Virus record (IMG/VR): IMGVR_UViG_3300008448_000593
Location: 1 to 24,873 of that record
Source of the DNA: a virus
DNA length: 24,873 bases
Reading direction: 5' to 3' (one strand)
The notes beneath the pieces were generated by a model, which did not search any database, had not been told where the DNA came from, and saw only the letters and a program-made list of their open reading frames with translations. A program made the position numbers and the translations under genes. Of the stretch, positions 836-23,178 are shown one piece after another; positions within the stretch are counted from its first letter, which is position 1, and each line of letters starts with the position of its first letter.

Positions 836-864
836 TTGACTAAATATCCGAGATGAGGTATAGT
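836..864 (+). promoter_or_regulatory. Sigma70-type promoter of the glutamine-riboswitch unit
   Basis: TTGACT (836-841) and TATAGT (859-864) are separated by exactly 17 bases. Each matches five of six consensus positions. The predicted start, near 871, coincides with the first base of the riboswitch. A late-type CTAAATA (840-846) overlaps the -35 element and might allow late transcription, though this short motif could occur by chance. Confidence 0.75.
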
Positions 865-870
865 ACCTCT

Positions 871-964
871 ACGTTCATCTGGTTATCCAGACGGAAGTAA
901 GCCGACGCGGAACGGATCGTTCATCCTATTAAGGACGCAAACGCCGACTGAAGGAACGCTCTTT
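871..964 (+). promoter_or_regulatory. Tandem glutamine riboswitch (glnA / downstream-peptide RNA type)
   Basis: Conserved blocks of the glutamine aptamers are visible: CGTTCATC (872-879), GACGGAAGTA (890-899) and GAAGGAACGC (950-959). The element is a tandem of two related modules. Module 1 (872-914) and module 2 (918-958) each run CGTTCATC, small hairpin, GACG or GACGC, GCCGAC, GGAACG. P2-like hairpins are CTGG/CCAG (879-882 with 887-890) and TCCT/AGGA (924-927 with 932-935). In each module CGTTC can close with GAACG. Module 1 keeps the canonical GACGGAAGTA, and module 2 keeps the canonical GAAGGAACGC end. CTCTTT (959-964) can pair with the Shine-Dalgarno AAGGAG (978-983) and is a candidate expression platform. 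The downstream-peptide class is known from cyanobacteria and their phages and binds L-glutamine; which module binds here is inference. Confidence 0.88.
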
Positions 965-991
965 AACCTAAACAACTAAGGAGAAAACCTA

Positions 992-1126
992 ATGTCACAA
1001 GTAGTTTATCGTGGTGTCCCTTACGACACCGAAGTGCGTAAGCAAGAGCAAGCGCAGCAACAACCTCAACAATACGATGCCCAATATCGTGGAGTAAAGT
1101 TTGTTAAGGAGGTTGAGAACAAATGA
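992..1126 (+). CDS. PirA-like / DUF4278 riboswitch-controlled peptide (44 aa)
   Basis: This short ORF encodes 44 residues with the signature YRGVPYD near the N-terminus (residues 6-12) and a second YRGVKF near residues 32-37, separated by a Gln-rich linker. The start is set by AAGGAG at 978-983, eight bases upstream of the ATG. The N-terminal YRG-x-x-Y-D pattern is that of DUF4278 small proteins found behind downstream-peptide RNAs. Cyanobacterial PirA belongs to this group; it binds the PII signalling protein and lowers PII activation of N-acetylglutamate kinase, the key step of arginine synthesis. The position directly behind a glutamine aptamer supports the assignment. PII binding by this phage version is inferred. 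Its stop overlaps the next ATG (ATGA at 1123-1126). Confidence 0.8.
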   Translation: MSQVVYRGVPYDTEVRKQEQAQQQPQQYDAQYRGVKFVKEVENK

Positions 1127-1218: not shown

Positions 1219-1224
1219 TATTTG

Positions 1225-1251
1225 GAGGGGACTTGATCCCCTCTTTTTTTT
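1225..1251 (+). terminator. Rho-independent terminator of the riboswitch operon
   Basis: GAGGGGA (1225-1231) pairs perfectly with TCCCCTC (1237-1243) across a five-base loop and is followed by eight T residues (1244-1251). It closes the 836-1251 unit seven bases after the stop of the 31-codon gene. Confidence 0.92.
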
Positions 1252-6102: not shown

Positions 6103-6716
6103 AATCAGATTACACTATTGAACGTGTAAGTAAATCCGAAGCCGCAGAGTTACTTCTGCGGTTTCATTATCTTAAGGACTTTTCAAAGGGATTTAAGTCT
6201 GGGTATAATTACGGTCTTTATAAGAATAATGATTTTTGCCCATTGAATATTGGTGGTATTCAGGGAGTCTGTGTGTTCACTGGACTCCCTGTTCCAGAAA
6301 TTGCCCAAGGTGCTTTTGGATTGGAACGTAATGAACAGCAAGGATTATTTGAACTTTCGCGCCTCTGCATCCACCCAGACACACAATCTGTGGAGCATAA
6401 TATCACTTCTTGGTTTGTTTCAAGATCGATTAGACAGTTACGGAAGGATACTGAAGTTAAAGCAATCATCTCTTACGCTGATAGTGATTTCCATAATGGC
6501 ACAATCTATCGCGCTTGTAATTTTAAATATTGCGGACTCACAGACCCAAAGAAGGATTTCTACTTTGCAGATGGAACTAAACACTCTAGAGGCAAAATTA
6601 AAGGTGCTGCAGGAGAATGGAAAGACCGCTCCCGCAAGCACCGATATGTGATGGTGTTTGATAAGAGTCTAGAACTCTTATGGCATAGTGACCCTAGTAT
6701 TCTCAGTACGAATTAA
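6099..6716 (+). CDS. Mom-like DNA-modification acyltransferase
   Basis: The 205-residue product resembles the phage Mu Mom family, a GNAT-fold group that modifies adenine in DNA. Shared features are an N-terminal H-Y-L segment, a central G-x-x-x-F-T-G beta region, F-E-L-S-R-L-C-I, a helix S-W-F-V-S-R-S-I-R-x-L, then I-S-Y-A-D (about residues 125-131), and N-G-T-I-Y-R-A-C-N-F-x-Y-C-G-L-T. Mu Mom (about 230 residues) converts adenine to a carbamoylmethyl form and protects DNA from restriction; the exact chemistry here is unknown. The start is a GTG overlapping the gp32 stop, so it is translated with gp32 from a strong promoter. Its last 39 bases overlap the convergent gp53 gene. A general GNAT enzyme is the alternative. 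Confidence 0.78.
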   Translation: MKSDYTIERVSKSEAAELLLRFHYLKDFSKGFKSGYNYGLYKNNDFCPLNIGGIQGVCVFTGLPVPEIAQGAFGLERNEQQGLFELSRLCIHPDTQSVEHNITSWFVSRSIRQLRKDTEVKAIISYADSDFHNGTIYRACNFKYCGLTDPKKDFYFADGTKHSRGKIKGAAGEWKDRSRKHRYVMVFDKSLELLWHSDPSILSTN

Positions 6717-7331
6717 AGTTTTATCGATATATTGCGAAGATTTATCATAATACATAATCTTTCTCATATCATTTAGATATTGTTGAAGATAATTTGCTTT
6801 TAAAATATAAATGGTCCTTTTTTCATTATTTTTTCTAACCTCATACTCATAATTACTAATTCCAATAACTGGTGCAGGAGTAATATTTTGAGTTGGAATG
6901 TATGGATCTGGAATTGTGAAATTATAATCTACAACTTTACCCGCAGGAAGAATTAAACGACCCTGTGAGTCCTTAACTTCTTTAGTTTCATAATGATGTA
7001 AAGCATTTAATTGAGTTCCATAAATTTCTTCAGCATAATTATAAACATCTTTATCAGATAAAGGCCATTCATTTCTAATATTCACAATTCCGGCAGTTAA
7101 AATTACAACCCAATCTAAATCTGGTTTACCATAAAGTTCTTCTGCTACAGTATCGGGACGAGCACCATCTTGAATTTGATACTTATTAAAGAGAGTAAAA
7201 ACATTTTGAAGATCATCACGAAGTTTAACTCTGCGAAATAAATTCTTTGCACGAACATAAGCATCCGAAGATATTCTATCAACAAAAGGTGATTGATATT
7301 CTAAATCTGGTAGTTCTCTGAAATATCCCAT
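6678..7331 (-). CDS. 53: Baseplate wedge protein gp53
   Basis: The 217-residue product starts M-G-Y-F-R-E-L-P-D-L-E-Y, the gp53 N-terminal pattern, and includes the conserved core N-K-Y-x-I-x-D-G-A-R-P-D-T-V-A-E-E-x-Y-G-x-P-x-L-D-W-V-V-I-L. That region in T4 gp53 shares a LysM-like fold and clamps neighbouring wedges. T4 gp53 has 196 residues. It is the last gene of a four-gene minus-strand cluster. Its ATG (7331-7329) overlaps the gp48 stop by one base. Its stop lies inside the convergent Mom-like gene, giving a 39-base tail-to-tail overlap. Confidence 0.92.
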   Translation of the reverse strand: MGYFRELPDLEYQSPFVDRISSDAYVRAKNLFRRVKLRDDLQNVFTLFNKYQIQDGARPDTVAEELYGKPDLDWVVILTAGIVNIRNEWPLSDKDVYNYAEEIYGTQLNALHHYETKEVKDSQGRLILPAGKVVDYNFTIPDPYIPTQNITPAPVIGISNYEYEVRKNNEKRTIYILKANYLQQYLNDMRKIMYYDKSSQYIDKTLIRTENTRVTMP

Positions 7332-8215
7332 TAGTATCCAACTCCATCTGTTAAAGGAATTTTATTATAATCTTCAAAGTAAATTGGATTCAGTTCTTGG
7401 AATGAAAGTGTAAGTTTCATATGAACTGGAGTTGCATCTTCATAAGTTGCATAAACCCCAGATCCAGTATAATCTACTATCATGTTTACCAATGCACATG
7501 GTTTAAATGAATGAAGGAATGGGTGTTTTTTATTCCCCGATTTATAAGTTAATTGGAATATTTCTGGAGAACTAATAAAAAGACCAGCACCAGTTCCACT
7601 TGAGGTTTTAGCTGCCATTGATGCTTTGAAGGTTCTTATAATATTTTTAACTGCCGTTGCTTCTTTTTCTTCTCTTGGTGCAAGATTGAATGAAAAATTA
7701 AAAGATCTTAATTGAACTCCTTGAAATAAAAGTTCCATATTTGGGTTAAGAACCTGACCAGAAGTTCTTGCGAGAACTCCTTCTGCACTCACATTTCCAC
7801 CAAGAGTTCCAACTGCTTTTGCTGACATATAACTAGTAACTAAATCTTGCCCATTTCCATTTGTAAGAGCGGATTTGAAAGCACCTGCCATTTGTGAAAC
7901 TTTAGTTAATGGATTTTCTCCTTGCATTACACCTTGCGCTAAACCAACTCCCGCAGCTTCTAAAGGATTTATGGTATCTTCTCCCCATTTAACCATATTA
8001 GTATCAGAAATTCCCTGTGGCATGGGAAGCAAAATTTGATACAATGGATTTTTTAAACTTTGAGATTCTAATGCTTCTGTGGAAGTTCTTTGAAGTAGAC
8101 TAGAACCTGATAAATCTACACCTGGAGGAACATAATCGACGACAAGAATCTCAAGATAATCATCTAATTTGTCTAATTTTTTTAATGGATATCTATAAGA
8201 CCCTTTAAGTGCCAT
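7331..8215 (-). CDS. 48: Baseplate tail-tube cap protein gp48
   Basis: The 294-residue product fits gp48, which sits on the hub with gp54 and nucleates the tail tube. The N-terminus has R-Y-P-L and D-Y-L-E-I-x-V-V-D-Y segments, and the middle is Gly/Ala-rich. The C-terminal half shows the tube-like motif M-E-L-L-F-Q-G-V-x-L-R-S-F-N-F-S-F-N-L-A-P-R-x-x-x-E, also seen in tail-tube relatives, then I-I-R-T-F-K. T4 gp48 is somewhat longer (364 residues). A late-type CTAAATA on the minus strand (8236-8230) precedes the ATG by about 15 bases. Confidence 0.88.
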   Translation of the reverse strand: MALKGSYRYPLKKLDKLDDYLEILVVDYVPPGVDLSGSSLLQRTSTEALESQSLKNPLYQILLPMPQGISDTNMVKWGEDTINPLEAAGVGLAQGVMQGENPLTKVSQMAGAFKSALTNGNGQDLVTSYMSAKAVGTLGGNVSAEGVLARTSGQVLNPNMELLFQGVQLRSFNFSFNLAPREEKEATAVKNIIRTFKASMAAKTSSGTGAGLFISSPEIFQLTYKSGNKKHPFLHSFKPCALVNMIVDYTGSGVYATYEDATPVHMKLTLSFQELNPIYFEDYNKIPLTDGVGY

Positions 8216-8229
8216 TTATCTTTTCTAAC

Positions 8230-8236
8230 TATTTAG
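8230..8236 (-). promoter_or_regulatory. Candidate late promoter for gp48-gp53
   Basis: The minus strand reads CTAAATA from 8236 to 8230, in the 22-base gap between the upstream gene's stop (8238) and the gp48 ATG (8215). The leader would be only a few bases long, so it may instead act with minimal leader, or be fortuitous. Confidence 0.4.
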
Positions 8237-8237
8237 A

Positions 8238-8738
8238 CTAGGTTGACAGTATTTTCCTATATGGAACATCATGAAGATAATCAAATTCTTCACCTTTTTG
8301 AACTCTATGAAAAACTCCAGTGACATTTTCCCAGAGATAATTTCTGTGATCCGGCCAATGAACATTAAATCCTTTAAAACCAGAAAGATTGACTGATTCG
8401 ACCATTAATAATGGATGTTGATCATAAAAAATTCTTGGAGTGATTGCTGTATAAATGAAGGTATATATATTTCCTGGTCTTGGATATGGTTCAGTATCAT
8501 CAAATATTCTTTGAATAATTGCCATAAGTTCATCTGGACTATCAGTTGCTTGAGAAATTGCTTCATCTAGCATTTGAACTCTACTTAACTTTTTAGTAGG
8601 TACTTCTATTCTTTGTAAGTCTTCTAAAGTTTCTTCTTGTTGTATCGCACTTTTTTGTTGCTCAGAAAGTTTTTCTCTTTGACTTGTAAGAAGAGATTTA
8701 ATTTTTCCTTTTGGAATTTTACTTACTTTTCTTGCCAT
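8238..8738 (-). CDS. Conserved cyanophage protein of unknown function (166 aa)
   Basis: The ATG at 8738-8736 overlaps the gp4 stop (TGATG), which fixes the start; an in-frame TTG one codon earlier is less likely. The N-terminal half is charged and helical (Lys/Gln/Glu-rich, probable coiled coil to about residue 60). The C-terminal half is a compact beta-rich domain with Y-T-F-I-Y-T-A-x-T-P-R-I-F-Y-D-x-H-P-L, then G-F-x-G-F-N-V-H-W and R-N-Y-L-W-E-N-V. I have the impression of this domain in other large myoviruses but cannot name it. Its place between gp4 (head completion) and gp48 (tail) points to virion assembly. A role like T4 gp2, which neighbours gene 4 in T4, is speculative. Confidence 0.75.
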   Translation of the reverse strand: MARKVSKIPKGKIKSLLTSQREKLSEQQKSAIQQEETLEDLQRIEVPTKKLSRVQMLDEAISQATDSPDELMAIIQRIFDDTEPYPRPGNIYTFIYTAITPRIFYDQHPLLMVESVNLSGFKGFNVHWPDHRNYLWENVTGVFHRVQKGEEFDYLHDVPYRKILST

Positions 8739-9175
8739 CAATTAATACCTAATTCGTTTTCGGTAAGAACTTTAAATTCCAATCCACGATCCGCACAAAA
8801 TTCTCTAGCAGCTTTCCATTTTGCTTGATTCTTTGCGTATTCTACAACTTCAAAAATATATCCTTTTGTTTTTCTTTTTTGTGGTGTTGGTTCTATTGTT
8901 TGTTTTTTTGGTTTAATCTCAATAATATATTTTTTAACTTGCCCATTACTTTCTTTTACTTTGATATAAAAATCTGGATAATATCTATGAATCTTATTAT
9001 CTACAGGAGATCTATATGGTAATGCAATTTCTTCACTTCCCCATTCTAAAATATTTTCATTAAGGTCACAATATTTCATGAAACGACGCTCCCACAAAGA
9101 CCTATAAATGATATTACTATAATCTCCTCGGTATTTCTGTGGGTTGGTTGGTTGATATTTTCCTTTATACGACAT
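8738..9175 (-). CDS. 4: Head completion protein gp4
   Basis: The 145-residue product matches gp4 of T4-like phages (150 residues in T4). It has an N-terminal Y-K-G-K-Y-x-P-x-N-P-x-K-Y-x-G-D, then I-x-Y-R-S-x-W-E-R-R-F-M-K-Y-C-D, N-I-L-x-W-x-S-E-E, and Y-x-P-D-F-Y-I followed by I-I-E-I-K-P-K. The last parts (E of WE, D of PDF, E-x-K) form a TnsA/PD-(D/E)XK-like nuclease core, seen also in T4 gp4, which is needed to complete filled heads before tail joining. It is the first gene of the minus-strand cluster. Overlapping opposed late motifs lie just upstream. Confidence 0.9.
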   Translation of the reverse strand: MSYKGKYQPTNPQKYRGDYSNIIYRSLWERRFMKYCDLNENILEWGSEEIALPYRSPVDNKIHRYYPDFYIKVKESNGQVKKYIIEIKPKKQTIEPTPQKRKTKGYIFEVVEYAKNQAKWKAAREFCADRGLEFKVLTENELGIN

Positions 9176-18669: not shown

Positions 18670-21600
18670 ATGGCAGATATTTTAGTTACAGGTCAAGAAG
18701 CATATTTTAATGAAGACGCTAAATTCTTTAAAGATGTTTATGTGTATGGTAATTTATATGCTTTAGGTCAAGGCGGGGTTGGTGGAGTTGGGGGTGGAAA
18801 TTTTAGTGGATCTGTAGTAATACCTGAAAATCTTTTTGTCGGAGGAATTTCTACATTTGTTGGAAAGGCTAATTTTCTATCTGATGTTAATATTGAAAAT
18901 TTACAAGTTGGTATATTAACAGTAACTAAAAAATTTGATGTTGGAGTTGGTGGGACAGTATTAACTGCATCTATTGCTACTGGAAACATTGGAATTGGAA
19001 CTTCTATTCCCAGAGAAAAAGTTGATATTATTGGAACAACATTAATTAGTGATAAATTAGGGATTGGCAATAATTCACCACAACAAGCTCTTGATGTTAC
19101 TGGAACAGCATTAATTAGTAGCAGATTAGGAATTGGTAATAATTCACCACAAGAATCTCTTGATGTTAGTGGATCGGCATTAATTAGCAGTAGATTGGGA
19201 ATTGGCAATAATTCACCACAACAAGCTCTTGATGTTACTGGAATAGCATTAATTAGTAGCAGATTAGGAATTGGTAATAATTCACCCCAATATCCTCTTG
19301 ATGTCACTGGTGATGCAAGAATTTCAAGTCAATTATATGATTCAACAAATAGTTCTGGAGTCATTGGAGCATTTTTAACAAAAGATGCTCAAGGAATTAA
19401 ATGGACTCCATTTGAACCTTCTTTTGTTGAGGGTATTTTTGTTTATAATGAGGATGTTTTAGTTAGTGTTTCATCTTTTAGAGGTTTAAACTTAAAAAAA
19501 GGGAGAGGGTCTGGAATTACTACAGATCCAATTCAAGGATTTGTAAATCCAACTAGTCCATCAATTGCTGATGTTTATGTCTATGATTATTGGGATAATG
19601 TTGAAGGAACTACTACTATTTACAGAAATTCTTATGTTGGAATCGGAGGTTCAACTCCAAAATTTGATTTAGATGTTTTTGGATCTGTAGGTATATCTTC
19701 ACTTTTAATCGTTGGTGGTGCTACTTCTCTTTCTAGCACTTTAGATGTAACTGGTATCACTACATTAAGAAGTCAATTGATTGTTAAAGGTCCTACAAAT
19801 CTTGAGAAGACCTTAGATGTAACTGGTATCACTACATTGAGAAGTCAATTGATTGTTAAAGGTCCTACAAATCTTGAACAAACTTTAGATGTAACTGGTA
19901 TCACTACATTAAGAAGTCAATTGATTGTTAAAGGTCCTACAAATCTTGAGAAGACTTTAGATGTAACTGGAATTACGACTTTAAGAGACCAATTAATCGT
20001 TGGTGGCGCTACAAGTCTTGCTAGTACTTTAGATGTAACTGGAATTACGACTTTAAGAGACCAATTAATCGTTGGTGGCGCTACAAGTCTTGCTAGTACT
20101 TTAGATGTAACTGGAATTACAAATCTAAAGGATCAATTGATCGTTGGTGGTGCTACTTCTCTTTCTAGTACTTTAGATGTAACTGGAATTACGACTTTAA
20201 GAGACCAATTAATCGTTGGTGGTGCTACTTCTCTTGCTAGTACTTTAGATGTAACTGGAATTACGAATCTAAAGGATCAATTAATCGTTGGTGGTGCTAC
20301 AAGTCTTGCTAGTACTTTAGATGTAACTGGTATCACTACATTAAGAAATCAATTAATCGTTAAAGGTCCTACAATTCTTGAACAAACTTTAGATGTAACT
20401 GGAATTACGACTTTAAGAGACCAATTAATCGTTAAAGGTCCTACAATTCTTGAACAAACTTTAGATGTAACTGGAATTACGACTTTAAGAGACCAATTAA
20501 TCGTTGGTGGCGCTACAAGTCTTGCTAGTACTTTAGATGTAACTGGAATTACAAATCTAAAGGATCAATTAATCGTTGGTGGTGCTACAAGTCTTGCTAG
20601 TACTTTAGATGTAACTGGAATTACAACTCTAAGGAATCAATTGATTGTTAAAGGTACTACAAATCTTGAACAAACTTTAGACGTAATTGGTATCACTAAT
20701 CTAAAGGATCAATTGATCGTTGGTGGTGCTACTTCTCTTGCTAGTACTTTAGATGTAACTGGTATTACTACATTAAGAAACCAATTAATCGTTGATGGAG
20801 CGACATCTTTAAATTCAACTCTTCAAGTTGGAGTTGGGGGAACAGTTATTACAACTACTGGAATTGGTTCTGTTGGTATAGGAACCTATAATCCAGAATT
20901 TGATATTGATTTGGCAAATAGTGTCAAATTCAGAAAAGCGATAATTGATAAAAATAATAAGGTTGGATATGATACTAATTTCTATCAAACTCCAAGATCA
21001 GTACTAACACAAGTTGGCATAGATACTGCCGGAGAAATCATTGGAGGTAGATTTTTTGATGCTGCAAATATGATTCGTTTGAATCTTGATTATATTGCAT
21101 CAGAGGCAGTTGGATATATTACAAGTACGGACTATAAAAATCCAGCATTTACATTAAATTCTGGAGATTATACTTCTTGTAAAGATGATATTAAAGATAT
21201 TCTAAAAGCAATTACGATTGACATTACAAAAGGTGGAAATGTTCAGTCCGTAGGTGCTGGTCGTGCATATCATGATGGAAATACTTTATTTTCTATTGGA
21301 ATTACTACTACAATTGCTACAATTGGTGCCGCTGCAACTGTTACAAAATATGTAATTAATAATGTCTCACCACCAAAATCATATCAAAGTGGTGTGGGTA
21401 GTATTCGTCAGGTAAGAGATTTAACTTTACAAGAAGATAATGGAAGTAATACAAATTCAACTGGATGTTCAAATGTAGTATCTGCAATTTATACATGTGC
21501 TGGTATTGTAACCACAATTATTGGAAATGGTCCAAATGCAGTACCGATTAATAATCCTGATGGAAAGGTAATTTGGGCACCAGCAGGAGCAGACTCTAGA

Positions 21601-23178
21601 AATCTAATTTGGGTTTCTAAGTATGGTAATGATGATAATGGTGGAAAGACTGAGGGTGATGCAAAACTCACAATTGGTGCTGCTTGTGAGATTGCTGAAC
21701 CAGGTGATACTGTTATGGTTCGTTCTGGTGTGTATTATGAAAATAATCCAATTGGATTAAGAACAGATGTATCTGTAAGTGGACAAGATTTAAGACTTGT
21801 TACTGTTGTCCCTAAAAATTTGGGTAAAGATGTTTTCCATGTAAGAAGAGGATGTCTGATTGAAAATATGAACTTTGCATGTGAAACTGGAGAATCGAAT
21901 ATTGGAGGAGGAGCACTAGCATTCCCACCAACAACTATTGATATTTTGGCAGGAAAATCTTATGGTGCAGTAACTGGATATACTGCACCTGGACCTGCAA
22001 ATGAAGGACCAAGTGGAAGATGGAGATCTCCATATGTAAGAAACTGTACTAACTTTATGCCGTTTAGTATTGGTATGAAAATTGATGGAGATCATTCAGT
22101 TTCTTCTACAATTGGTGCAGATCTTAAATGTATGGTGTGCGATTCGTTCACACAATACAATGAAGCAGGTATTGGTGTTTCAATTACCAATAATGGATAC
22201 GCACAGTTAGTCTCTATTTTCACAATTAACTGTGATAAGGCAATCTATGTTGATACTGGTGGACAATGTGATCTTACAAACTCCAACTCATCTTTTGGTA
22301 ATTATGGTCTTTATGCGGTTGGTTTAGGTAGAACAGAATTTACTGCAAAAGTAAATACATCTACATCTGCAGAAGAAGATACAATCGTCTTTAAAGAGGT
22401 AACTGACGGAACTCAAGTAAGAAGACCTTATGATGGGCAGGCATTATGGTTTAAGATTAATCTTGCAAATTATAATACTGGTCAGACTGGAATTATTACT
22501 GCACCACTACAACAATTAAATAAAATTAATATAATTAATACTATTCCTGGATATAGTCCAAGTGCTCCACCAGATGTTACCATTTATGATTATAATACCA
22601 ATAGTGAAAATCCATTAGGCCCAGAGGGCATTATTGCAGAATTGTCTCCAACAATTAGTGACGCTGGAGAACTTATTGCCGTTGATGTTATTGGTAGTGG
22701 AAGAAATTATCTCCCTTCTCAAGATATGAGAGTTAGAATTAATGGAGTTCCTACAAATAATTTGGTTGCGGTAATGGAACCAATTTATTATACTGTTTCT
22801 GAGGCGACACCTCCAACTAATTCTGGTATCACAACTGTTACTCTAAATGAATTTGTTCCATATCTTGTTTATGCTGAAGATGCAATTGATATGAGAAGAA
22901 TTAGTCGCATTTTGACAAGTTCTCACTCTTTCGAATATATCGGTACTGGCACAGATATAAATACTTCAACTCCTTTGAAGGGTGCTGTGCCCATCAAAGA
23001 GAACGAAATTGTTGCTCTTGATGGCGCTCAAATACCTTACACAAGTACTGACCAAAAAGGTAATTTTAATATTGGTGAAGGTATTCAAGTAGATCAAACA
23101 ACCGCAACAATTCGTGGAAGAGACTTTAGTAAAGCAATTCAAGCACAAGTAACACCTTTAATTCTTGCATTGAGATAA
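18670..23178 (+). CDS. Large fibre/baseplate-associated protein with LDVTG repeats and beta-helix domain (1502 aa)
   Basis: The N-terminal 110 residues have a Gly-rich segment and I-G-I-G turns. Four 23-residue I-G-N-N-S-P-Q/L-D-V-T-G repeats follow (bases 19057-19332). After a unique spacer come fifteen 24-residue T-L-D-V-T-G-I-T repeats (bases 19738-20817). From about residue 970, W-V-S-K-Y-G-N-D-D-N-G-G, A-E-P-G-D-T-V and G-V-Y-Y-E-N-N-P-I-G begin a right-handed beta-helix (pectin-lyase-like) domain to about 1250. The C-terminus has D-Q-K-G-N-F-N-I-G-E-G, common in cyanophage structural proteins. Such repeats form elongated trimeric fibres, and the beta-helix may bind or cut surface glycans. 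Receptor binding is inferred from architecture and position. No S74 chaperone domain is seen. Confidence 0.8.
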   Translation: MADILVTGQEAYFNEDAKFFKDVYVYGNLYALGQGGVGGVGGGNFSGSVVIPENLFVGGISTFVGKANFLSDVNIENLQVGILTVTKKFDVGVGGTVLTASIATGNIGIGTSIPREKVDIIGTTLISDKLGIGNNSPQQALDVTGTALISSRLGIGNNSPQESLDVSGSALISSRLGIGNNSPQQALDVTGIALISSRLGIGNNSPQYPLDVTGDARISSQLYDSTNSSGVIGAFLTKDAQGIKWTPFEPSFVEGIFVYNEDVLVSVSSFRGLNLKKGRGSGITTDPIQGFVNPTSPSIADVYVYDYWDNVEGTTTIYRNSYVGIGGSTPKFDLDVFGSVGISSLLIVGGATSLSSTLDVTGITTLRSQLIVKGPTNLEKTLDVTGITTLRSQLIVKGPTNLEQTLDVTGITTLRSQLIVKGPTNLEKTLDVTGITTLRDQLIVGGATSLASTLDVTGITTLRDQLIVGGATSLASTLDVTGITNLKDQLIVGGATSLSSTLDVTGITTLRDQLIVGGATSLASTLDVTGITNLKDQLIVGGATSLASTLDVTGITTLRNQLIVKGPTILEQTLDVTGITTLRDQLIVKGPTILEQTLDVTGITTLRDQLIVGGATSLASTLDVTGITNLKDQLIVGGATSLASTLDVTGITTLRNQLIVKGTTNLEQTLDVIGITNLKDQLIVGGATSLASTLDVTGITTLRNQLIVDGATSLNSTLQVGVGGTVITTTGIGSVGIGTYNPEFDIDLANSVKFRKAIIDKNNKVGYDTNFYQTPRSVLTQVGIDTAGEIIGGRFFDAANMIRLNLDYIASEAVGYITSTDYKNPAFTLNSGDYTSCKDDIKDILKAITIDITKGGNVQSVGAGRAYHDGNTLFSIGITTTIATIGAAATVTKYVINNVSPPKSYQSGVGSIRQVRDLTLQEDNGSNTNSTGCSNVVSAIYTCAGIVTTIIGNGPNAVPINNPDGKVIWAPAGADSRNLIWVSKYGNDDNGGKTEGDAKLTIGAACEIAEPGDTVMVRSGVYYENNPIGLRTDVSVSGQDLRLVTVVPKNLGKDVFHVRRGCLIENMNFACETGESNIGGGALAFPPTTIDILAGKSYGAVTGYTAPGPANEGPSGRWRSPYVRNCTNFMPFSIGMKIDGDHSVSSTIGADLKCMVCDSFTQYNEAGIGVSITNNGYAQLVSIFTINCDKAIYVDTGGQCDLTNSNSSFGNYGLYAVGLGRTEFTAKVNTSTSAEEDTIVFKEVTDGTQVRRPYDGQALWFKINLANYNTGQTGIITAPLQQLNKINIINTIPGYSPSAPPDVTIYDYNTNSENPLGPEGIIAELSPTISDAGELIAVDVIGSGRNYLPSQDMRVRINGVPTNNLVAVMEPIYYTVSEATPPTNSGITTVTLNEFVPYLVYAEDAIDMRRISRILTSSHSFEYIGTGTDINTSTPLKGAVPIKENEIVALDGAQIPYTSTDQKGNFNIGEGIQVDQTTATIRGRDFSKAIQAQVTPLILALR
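19057..19332 (+). repeat. Four 69-base coding repeats (23 aa each)
   Basis: Four units of L-G-I-G-N-N-S-P-Q-x-x-L-D-V-x-G-x-A-x-I-S-S-x lie head to tail, each 69 bases. A diverged fifth unit precedes them (I-G-I-G-T-S-I-P-R-E-K-V-D-I-I-G). The reading frame is kept throughout. Confidence 0.9.
19738..20817 (+). repeat. Fifteen 72-base coding repeats (24 aa each)
   Basis: Fifteen exact-length units begin T-L-D-V-T-G-I-T. Two sub-types alternate: those ending G-G-A-T-S-L-A-S and those ending K-G-P-T-N-L-E-Q or a close variant. Several adjacent units are almost identical at the DNA level, pointing to recent duplication or gene conversion. Confidence 0.95.

Follow-up and report, generated by a model that had tools for sequence, protein, structure and literature searches.

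The pair that closes the glutamine-binding helix of glutamine riboswitches is referred to as the linchpin. In the solved glutamine-I (RF01739) and glutamine-II (RF01704) aptamers it is a long-range pair, C19-G41 in glutamine-II and, by our own numbering of the published sequence, G23-C60 in glutamine-I (PMC6698751, PMC5393176). Glutamine-II is described as a pseudoknot that builds nearly the same pocket without the P3 helix of glutamine-I (PMC6698751), and a strand-swapped glutamine-II dimer has been seen in crystals, although according to that study it presumably does not form in vivo (PMC7357161). The occurrence of glnA RNAs in tandem was pointed out in 2010 (PMC2864571), and in 2022 a count of 157 glutamine doublets and 4 triplets was reported, which were read as pseudo-cooperative separate aptamers (PMC9481103). 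Since glutamine riboswitches in cyanophages and marine phages have also been published (PMC9964418, PMC10665884, PMC9004378), a duplicated cyanophage aptamer is in itself ordinary. The element found in cyanophage S-CREM1 is the same composite as the one described below; it is annotated as a single 99-nt glnA riboswitch, and the accessible text of that paper makes no mention of a tandem, a swap or a mechanism (PMC9964418).

The window analysed here is a 24,873-base virus fragment that carries T4-like genes (ThyX, PhoH, gp32 and gp5), and its phage matches are cyanophages. Its leader (836-991) consists of a sigma-70-like promoter, followed almost directly by two glutamine-riboswitch modules and then by ORF2 (Table 1). 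A consensus scan found three promoter-like sites in the scanned region, with 0.6 expected, and the predicted transcription start of the leader promoter would adjoin box B1. The sequence CTAAATA at 840-847, a cyanophage late-promoter motif, overlaps this promoter, and the leader might thus be transcribed at two times. ORF2 is the probable target of riboswitch control and bears a weak likeness to DUF4278; a link to the PII regulator PirA, which presumably has a DUF4278 domain, is conceivable on this basis. For ORF3, no protein family was found with an E value under 0.1 in Pfam and PHROG searches. Counterparts of ORF2 and ORF3 appear as a single fused ORF in S-CREM1 and in reversed order in Bellamy. 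Elsewhere in the window, a block of minus-strand genes lies at 6678-9175, between gp32 and the tail genes, and the single gene examined in it (7334-8215) had no Pfam match; the structural gene region contains a very long ORF of 1502 aa (18670-23178).

Table 1. Features of the leader and the adjoining small operon, with pairing partners as in the composite topology.
Feature	Position	Strand	Basis or remark
Sigma-70-like promoter, TTGACT-17-TATAGT	836-864	+	Consensus scan, 10/12 matches
Box B1 CGTTC, 5' strand of outer P1, partner B4 (954-958)	872-876	+	Sequence; composite topology
Outer P2 hairpin, 878-882 with 887-891	878-891	+	5/5 pairs with both-sided changes; arm houses ORF0 gene in other phages
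CGGAAGUA: G893 ligand-triple base, G894 linchpin (with C959), AGUA 5' side of E-loop	892-899	+	Homology to glutamine-I as described in PMC6698751, PMC5393176
P3 5' strand AGCCGACG, partner 942-949 of module 2; two mismatches, C-A and A-C	900-907	+	
Box B2 GAACG, inner P1 hairpin with B3	910-914	+	
Loop GAT of inner P1; G915 inner linchpin partner of C938	915-917	+	
Box B3 CGTTC, partner B2	918-922	+	
Inner P2' hairpin, 924-927 with 932-935	924-935	+	Arm houses ORF1 gene in most relatives
CGCAAA: G937 inner ligand-triple base, C938 inner linchpin (with G915)	936-941	+	
P3 3' strand CGCCGACT	942-949	+	
GAAG, 3' side of E-loop of outer aptamer	950-953	+	Rfam consensus
Box B4 GAACG, 3' strand of outer P1	954-958	+	
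CTCTTTA: C959 outer linchpin and first base of anti-Shine-Dalgarno	959-965	+	
TAAGGAG, Shine-Dalgarno of ORF2, complement of 959-965	977-983	+	
ORF2, 44 aa, DUF4278-like (MSQVVYRGVPYDTEV...)	992-1126	+	Pfam PF14105 E 1.4e-4, under its cut-off; phrog_5049 E 7.6e-14
ORF3, 31 aa	1123-1218	+	Start overlaps ORF2 stop (ATGA)
Intrinsic terminator-like hairpin and T-run, closing the transcription unit	1224-1251	+	Sequence scan

The four boxes at 872-958 make up two glutamine-I (glnA) riboswitch modules. All the elements from which the first-pass annotation had argued (boxes at 872-876, 910-914, 918-922 and 954-958, and CTCTTT at 959-964) are present when read directly in the sequence, as are GACGGAAGTA at 890-899 and GAAGGAACGC at 950-959. 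Its proposal that each module alone departs from consensus while the composite is complete also agrees with the present reading: module 1 has no GAAG between its P3 half and GAACG, and module 2 has no GUA between CGCAA and its P3 half. A three-way junction of P1, P2 and P3 with an E-loop (AGUA/GAAG) is found in the outer composite aptamer and in neither module alone. In a 481-base search, RF01739 matched 916-962 with 37.9 bits (E 9.2e-7), above the gathering score of 35, and 872-914 with 27.3 bits (E 7.9e-4), below that score; a second Rfam search placed both matches at the same positions, a further one recovered the match at 916-962, and the matches on both modules far exceed chance. The glutamine-II model RF01704 gave 20.0 bits at 915-946, below its gathering score of 33, and the element is not assigned to that class. 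A single contiguous canonical match, or poor conservation of module 2 among related phages, had been named as evidence against a duplicated aptamer; the covariance-model search reported two matches, and module 2 is not poorly conserved. The Rfam model pairs strands inside each module, however, and this pairing is contradicted by the comparative data that follow.

A DNA search with positions 820-1240 matched 131 phage records out of 50,697, whose names start with Synechococcus, Prochlorococcus, Cyanophage or Marine, and 16 of these were examined in detail; the composite element is present in many cultured cyanophages, including P-SSM2, P-SSM4, P-HM1 and S-SM2. The matches listed by four pattern scans of viral contigs enlarged the set to 428 sequences including the window, of which the parser kept at least 321 non-duplicate composite-type sites with both ends, again among the matches listed; these are the basis of all counts out of 321. 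The scan patterns fixed boxes 2 and 3, CGG or CGC in module 1, part of the 5' strand of P3 (P3a) and, in a single scan, also the base that follows box 2. No letters were fixed in the 3' strand of P3 (P3b), in module 2 past its first box or downstream of the last box, and the covariations were therefore not built in by the search. Parsing dropped 27 duplicates and 64 matches without a recognised 3' part within 480 nt. These 64 comprised 17 cut by contig ends, one duplicate and 46 whose 3' part was missed by the pattern; by eye, the latter were six canonical doublets and 40 composites, mostly with variant junctions such as CGCAC, and the 40 were left out of the counts out of 321. Other viral contigs have canonical, non-swapped glutamine doublets upstream of small unrelated ORFs (MTKYQ..., for instance), and these doublets served as controls. 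In bacterial genomes, a too-loose 15-letter composite pattern listed 118 stretches from unrelated phyla with no cyanobacterium among their origins, which is uninformative on hosts, and a plasmid search for the composite gave one irrelevant match.

The two halves of P3 lie in different modules, are complementary and change together across the 321 listed sites. The innermost pair is U-A at 163 sites, G-C at 125 and A-U at 30, which is Watson-Crick pairing at 318 of 321 sites with identical letters at one, and this pattern is not mere repeat homology. Variants that change in step include AGCCGACU/AGCCGACU, AGCCGACG/CGCCGACU, AGCCGACA/UGCCGACU and AGUCA/UGACU, and among those that match over the whole helix are AGUCG/CGACU, GGACGG/CCGCCC and AGACAACU/AGUUGACU. 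The commonest form of P3 retains two mismatch positions, C-A and A-C, which counts against the composite.

The linchpins point the same way. In the window, the relevant letters are G894 and G915 around module 1 and C938 and C959 around module 2, so that no linchpin is possible within either module (G-G and C-C), and both swapped linchpins form, G894-C959 in the outer aptamer and C938-G915 in the inner one. Among the listed sites, the outer swapped pair fits at 321/321, in keeping with the glutamine-I linchpin, and the inner at 315/321, whereas within-module linchpins fit at 230/321 for module 1 and 230/321 for module 2. The inner pair is reversed (G with C) at three of the 321 sites. Failure of the inner linchpin at 6 of the 321 counts against the composite, and the inner linchpin position is A in 3 of the 40 composites recognised by eye. 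Twelve of 13 canonical doublets from the same viral data have both linchpins inside the modules, and the linchpin test thus separates the swapped kind from the ordinary one.

The topology was also assessed as a whole. On 61 gene-free sites, the composite gave 92.7% paired cells with both-sided changes in 16 of 29 pairs, and P3 and the linchpins alone had double changes in 8 of 10 pairs; the two within-module linchpins alone were 65.6% paired. The covariation score of the composite on these sites was 0.286, against a mean of 0.082 for shuffles, which ignore the kinship of the sequences, and at most 0.066 with slid partners. Independent contrasts on the supported branches of a weak tree numbered only two for the linchpin and four for P3, in the direction predicted, and seven and 13, respectively, when all branches of this weakly supported tree were used. 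With the alignment as its sole input, RNAalifold predicted B1xB4, P2, the B2xB3 hairpin and P2', but not P3. Folding energies in the window were -16.8 kcal/mol for the composite and -12.4 for two aptamers, and the composite was lower at 61/61 gene-free sites, where only energy differences count because both structures contain 2-nt loops, which are impossible, in some rows. At the 321 listed sites, B2 and B3 are always separated by a loop of 3-6 nt and never by a shorter one. Among the matches listed, boxes B2 and B3 are exact in 373/376 (the other three being evidently spurious), B4 in 283/283 and B1 in 310/311. Owing to this invariance, outer P1 has no covariation support of its own, and covariation of the boxes cannot serve as a test. 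The first-pass annotation had allowed the boxes to pair either as two separate aptamers or as one composite; of these, the composite is favoured by the covariation of P3 between modules, the swapped linchpins, RNAalifold and energy, and the separate aptamers are not.

The best explanation, which we regard as highly probable, is that the 5' leader of this small cyanophage operon folds at 872-959 into a single composite RNA, a double glutamine-I aptamer with swapped strands and probably two glutamine sites. The base pairing of the composite is shown by the comparative data. The outer aptamer would be canonical in its order of B1, P2, CGGAAGUA, P3, GAAG and B4, and it shares with glutamine-I (RF01739) P1 (CGUUC/GAACG), P2, the CGGAAGUA and GAAG halves of the E-loop, P3 and the linchpin. 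Unlike that of RF01739, its P3 would have no terminal loop and would open into an inner, circularly permuted aptamer (B2, a 3-nt loop, B3, P2', CGCAA and back into P3), with the strands of the two Rfam matches split between pockets. Both pockets retain the glutamine-contact bases of the solved structures as published (PMC6698751, PMC5393176), and the idea of a two-ligand switch appears to fit the composite for this reason. Up to two glutamines might be bound, and because the predicted sites share P3, their binding may be coupled. The lack of an E-loop in the inner aptamer counts against this model.

Several other accounts of the same sequences were weighed. That GCCGAC is a conserved repeat without RNA pairing, kept through the shared ancestry of the modules or as protein code in gene-bearing relatives, is scarcely credible, even though P3a and P3b are identical repeats in the commonest form and ORF1 commonly ends GAC GCA AAA GCC GAC TGA. 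The P3 changes are complementary rather than parallel, the motif is also kept at gene-free sites, including the window, and the overlap with ORF1 uses GAC and GCA without exception, whereas the rest of those genes often has GAT or other Ala codons (see below). A direct-repeat or coding origin was rejected on these grounds and is largely refuted. Two independent tandem aptamers (B1xB2 and B3xB4), pseudo-cooperative like many glutamine doublets, would be in keeping with the known tandem glnA RNAs, the two separate Rfam matches, the complementarity of the boxes and the 13 canonical doublets present among these viral sequences. However, the P3 strands would then have to stay unpaired or form a pseudoknot, the within-module linchpins are impossible in the window and often do not fit elsewhere, each module lacks its half of the E-loop (GAAG in module 1, GUA in module 2), and the structure is higher in energy at 61/61 gene-free sites and not the choice of RNAalifold. 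This arrangement is very improbable, and an ordinary doublet, with P1, P3 and the linchpin each formed inside a single module, was rejected given the P3 partners in different modules and the linchpin data.

In a strand-exchange switch, B1xB2 would form first during transcription and give way to the composite after synthesis of module 2, or the two forms would interconvert under the influence of glutamine. Such a switch could exploit boxes that are fully interchangeable and invariant, a B1-P2-B2 unit that is complete before module 2 is transcribed, and a P1 that is probably a weak, ligand-stabilised helix in the glutamine class; but outside the boxes no base is conserved that requires the B1xB2 form, the informative covariations favour the composite, and ligand contact also accounts for the invariance of the boxes. 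We consider exchange improbable. It is somewhat less doubtful, but still unlikely, that glutamine is bound by the outer aptamer only, the inner permuted module being a structural cap that stiffens P3. The missing GUA/GAA E-loop of the inner module and the six sites at which its linchpin fails suit a cap, whereas in other respects the inner boxes, the G937 equivalent and the letters of the linchpin partners are conserved and covary, including the three G-C reversals, and the pocket of glutamine-II, as described, manages without a glutamine-I P3 (PMC6698751).

The pairing of CTCTTT with the Shine-Dalgarno that had been suggested earlier is real, but it is conserved in one lineage only. In the window, CTCTTTA (959-965) is complementary to TAAGGAG (977-983). 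The fold of lowest energy predicted for 868-992 has this anti-Shine-Dalgarno hairpin and does not form outer P1, which counts against the composite. Among the 300 listed sites with a recognised Shine-Dalgarno, a complement of at least 7 bp is present at 84 of 93 with C after the last box (C-type) and at 4 of 207 with G (G-type). In the marine lineage it is almost absent (4/207), and that lineage must use another readout. C959 is claimed by both the outer linchpin and the CUCUUUA helix. In the lineage of the window, glutamine binding would thus compete with this helix for C959, and a glutamine-bound fold that takes it up would allow more translation of ORF2 and ORF3 at high glutamine levels. 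That binding acts in the ON direction is inferred by analogy with a glutamine-II switch, for which ON behaviour has been reported (PMC6698751).

The element represents a variant within an established class of riboswitch, and its gene-housing extension in relatives was unexpected. The tandem doublets already reported likewise place two consecutive glutamine modules upstream of a single gene, but are described as separate aptamers (PMC9481103), whereas the cyanophage modules are interlocked. Glutamine-II resembles the inner module in its CGC...GAACGG linchpin and nearly identical pocket, and differs in its published pseudoknot fold without P3 (PMC6698751). The glutamine-II crystal dimer shares with the composite the exchange of strands between two copies (PMC7357161); in the cyanophages both copies belong to a single chain, and sequence evolution supports the swap. 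If the composite is correct, a domain-swapped dimer that was seen in crystals and thought absent in vivo has been fixed by evolution in one chain, and provides a ready-made RNA with two pockets on a shared helix in which cooperativity is directly testable. Current covariance models read the composite as two separate aptamers and miss gene-bearing second modules. The model would also bear on the sensing of host nitrogen by cyanophages, and the occurrence of the element in many cultured cyanophages makes experiments feasible.

The window belongs to the gene-free class, with both P2 arms short. Across the 321 listed sites, a conserved small gene occupies the second arm (P2') at 231 and the first arm (P2) at 95. 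By class (first/second arm), 151 sites are short/gene, 70 gene/gene, 63 short/short and 23 gene/short; the others are unresolved/gene (10), gene/long without an ORF of 45 aa (2), short/long without such an ORF (1) and unresolved/short (1). Both arms are filled by genes in the named phages P-HM1 and P-SSM4 (L130:158-361 and 391-567; L132:150-350 and 390-563). The second-arm ORF (ORF1) is mostly 49-67 aa long with two cysteines, and runs from an ATG in the arm's 5' strand to a stop codon in the core. The second-arm protein of P-SSM7 matches phrog_504 with an E value of 1.8e-19, while freshwater second-arm proteins gave only 0.0076 and 0.017. In 226 of 230 unique second-arm ORFs the reading frame agrees with that of the junction, and over the overlap of ORF and core all 226 have the same codons, GAC and GCA. 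Elsewhere in the same genes, Asp is encoded by GAT in 418/556 codons and Ala by GCA in only 358/741, and fixation against the usage of the genes themselves suggests an RNA constraint beyond the protein. The ends of the second arm pair across the gene, with a mean of 5.82 contiguous pairs in 159 unique end pairs against 4.12 (sd 0.10) for shuffled partners; for the first arm, the mean is 5.31 in 67 unique pairs, from sites preselected for a stem of at least 3, against 3.88 (sd 0.18).

More tentatively, and with somewhat less than even confidence, we propose that these RNAs are a natural riboswitch class in which an intramolecular strand-swapped dimer houses genes, such that glutamine binding and translation of the housed genes are mutually exclusive on one RNA. 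Housed genes start in the 5' strand of an arm and stop in or beside the ligand-binding core. Their start codons would be buried when the aptamer is folded, and the aptamer would in turn be opened by a ribosome. The glutamine-bound fold would then have the housed genes off and the downstream gene on, and the ribosome-occupied RNA the reverse. In the open-access literature, which does not cover closed papers, no description of genes inside aptamer arms was found. If the proposal holds, these would be, as far as the literature was searched, the first aptamers with whole genes inside their arms, in which ligand binding is set against translation on the same RNA. Group I introns carry whole genes in the peripheral loops of a structured RNA, but they are ribozymes with homing genes, whereas the cyanophage elements are ligand-binding aptamers. 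The marine first- and second-arm proteins, which were aligned by hhalign with a probability of 96.5%, look like distantly related families. A recurring palindromic hairpin cap (like GCTATTCGCAAATAGC) was observed in 32 arms, 17 of them P2 and 15 P2'; elsewhere it gave 10 loose matches in 3,189 kb, a chance-like number.
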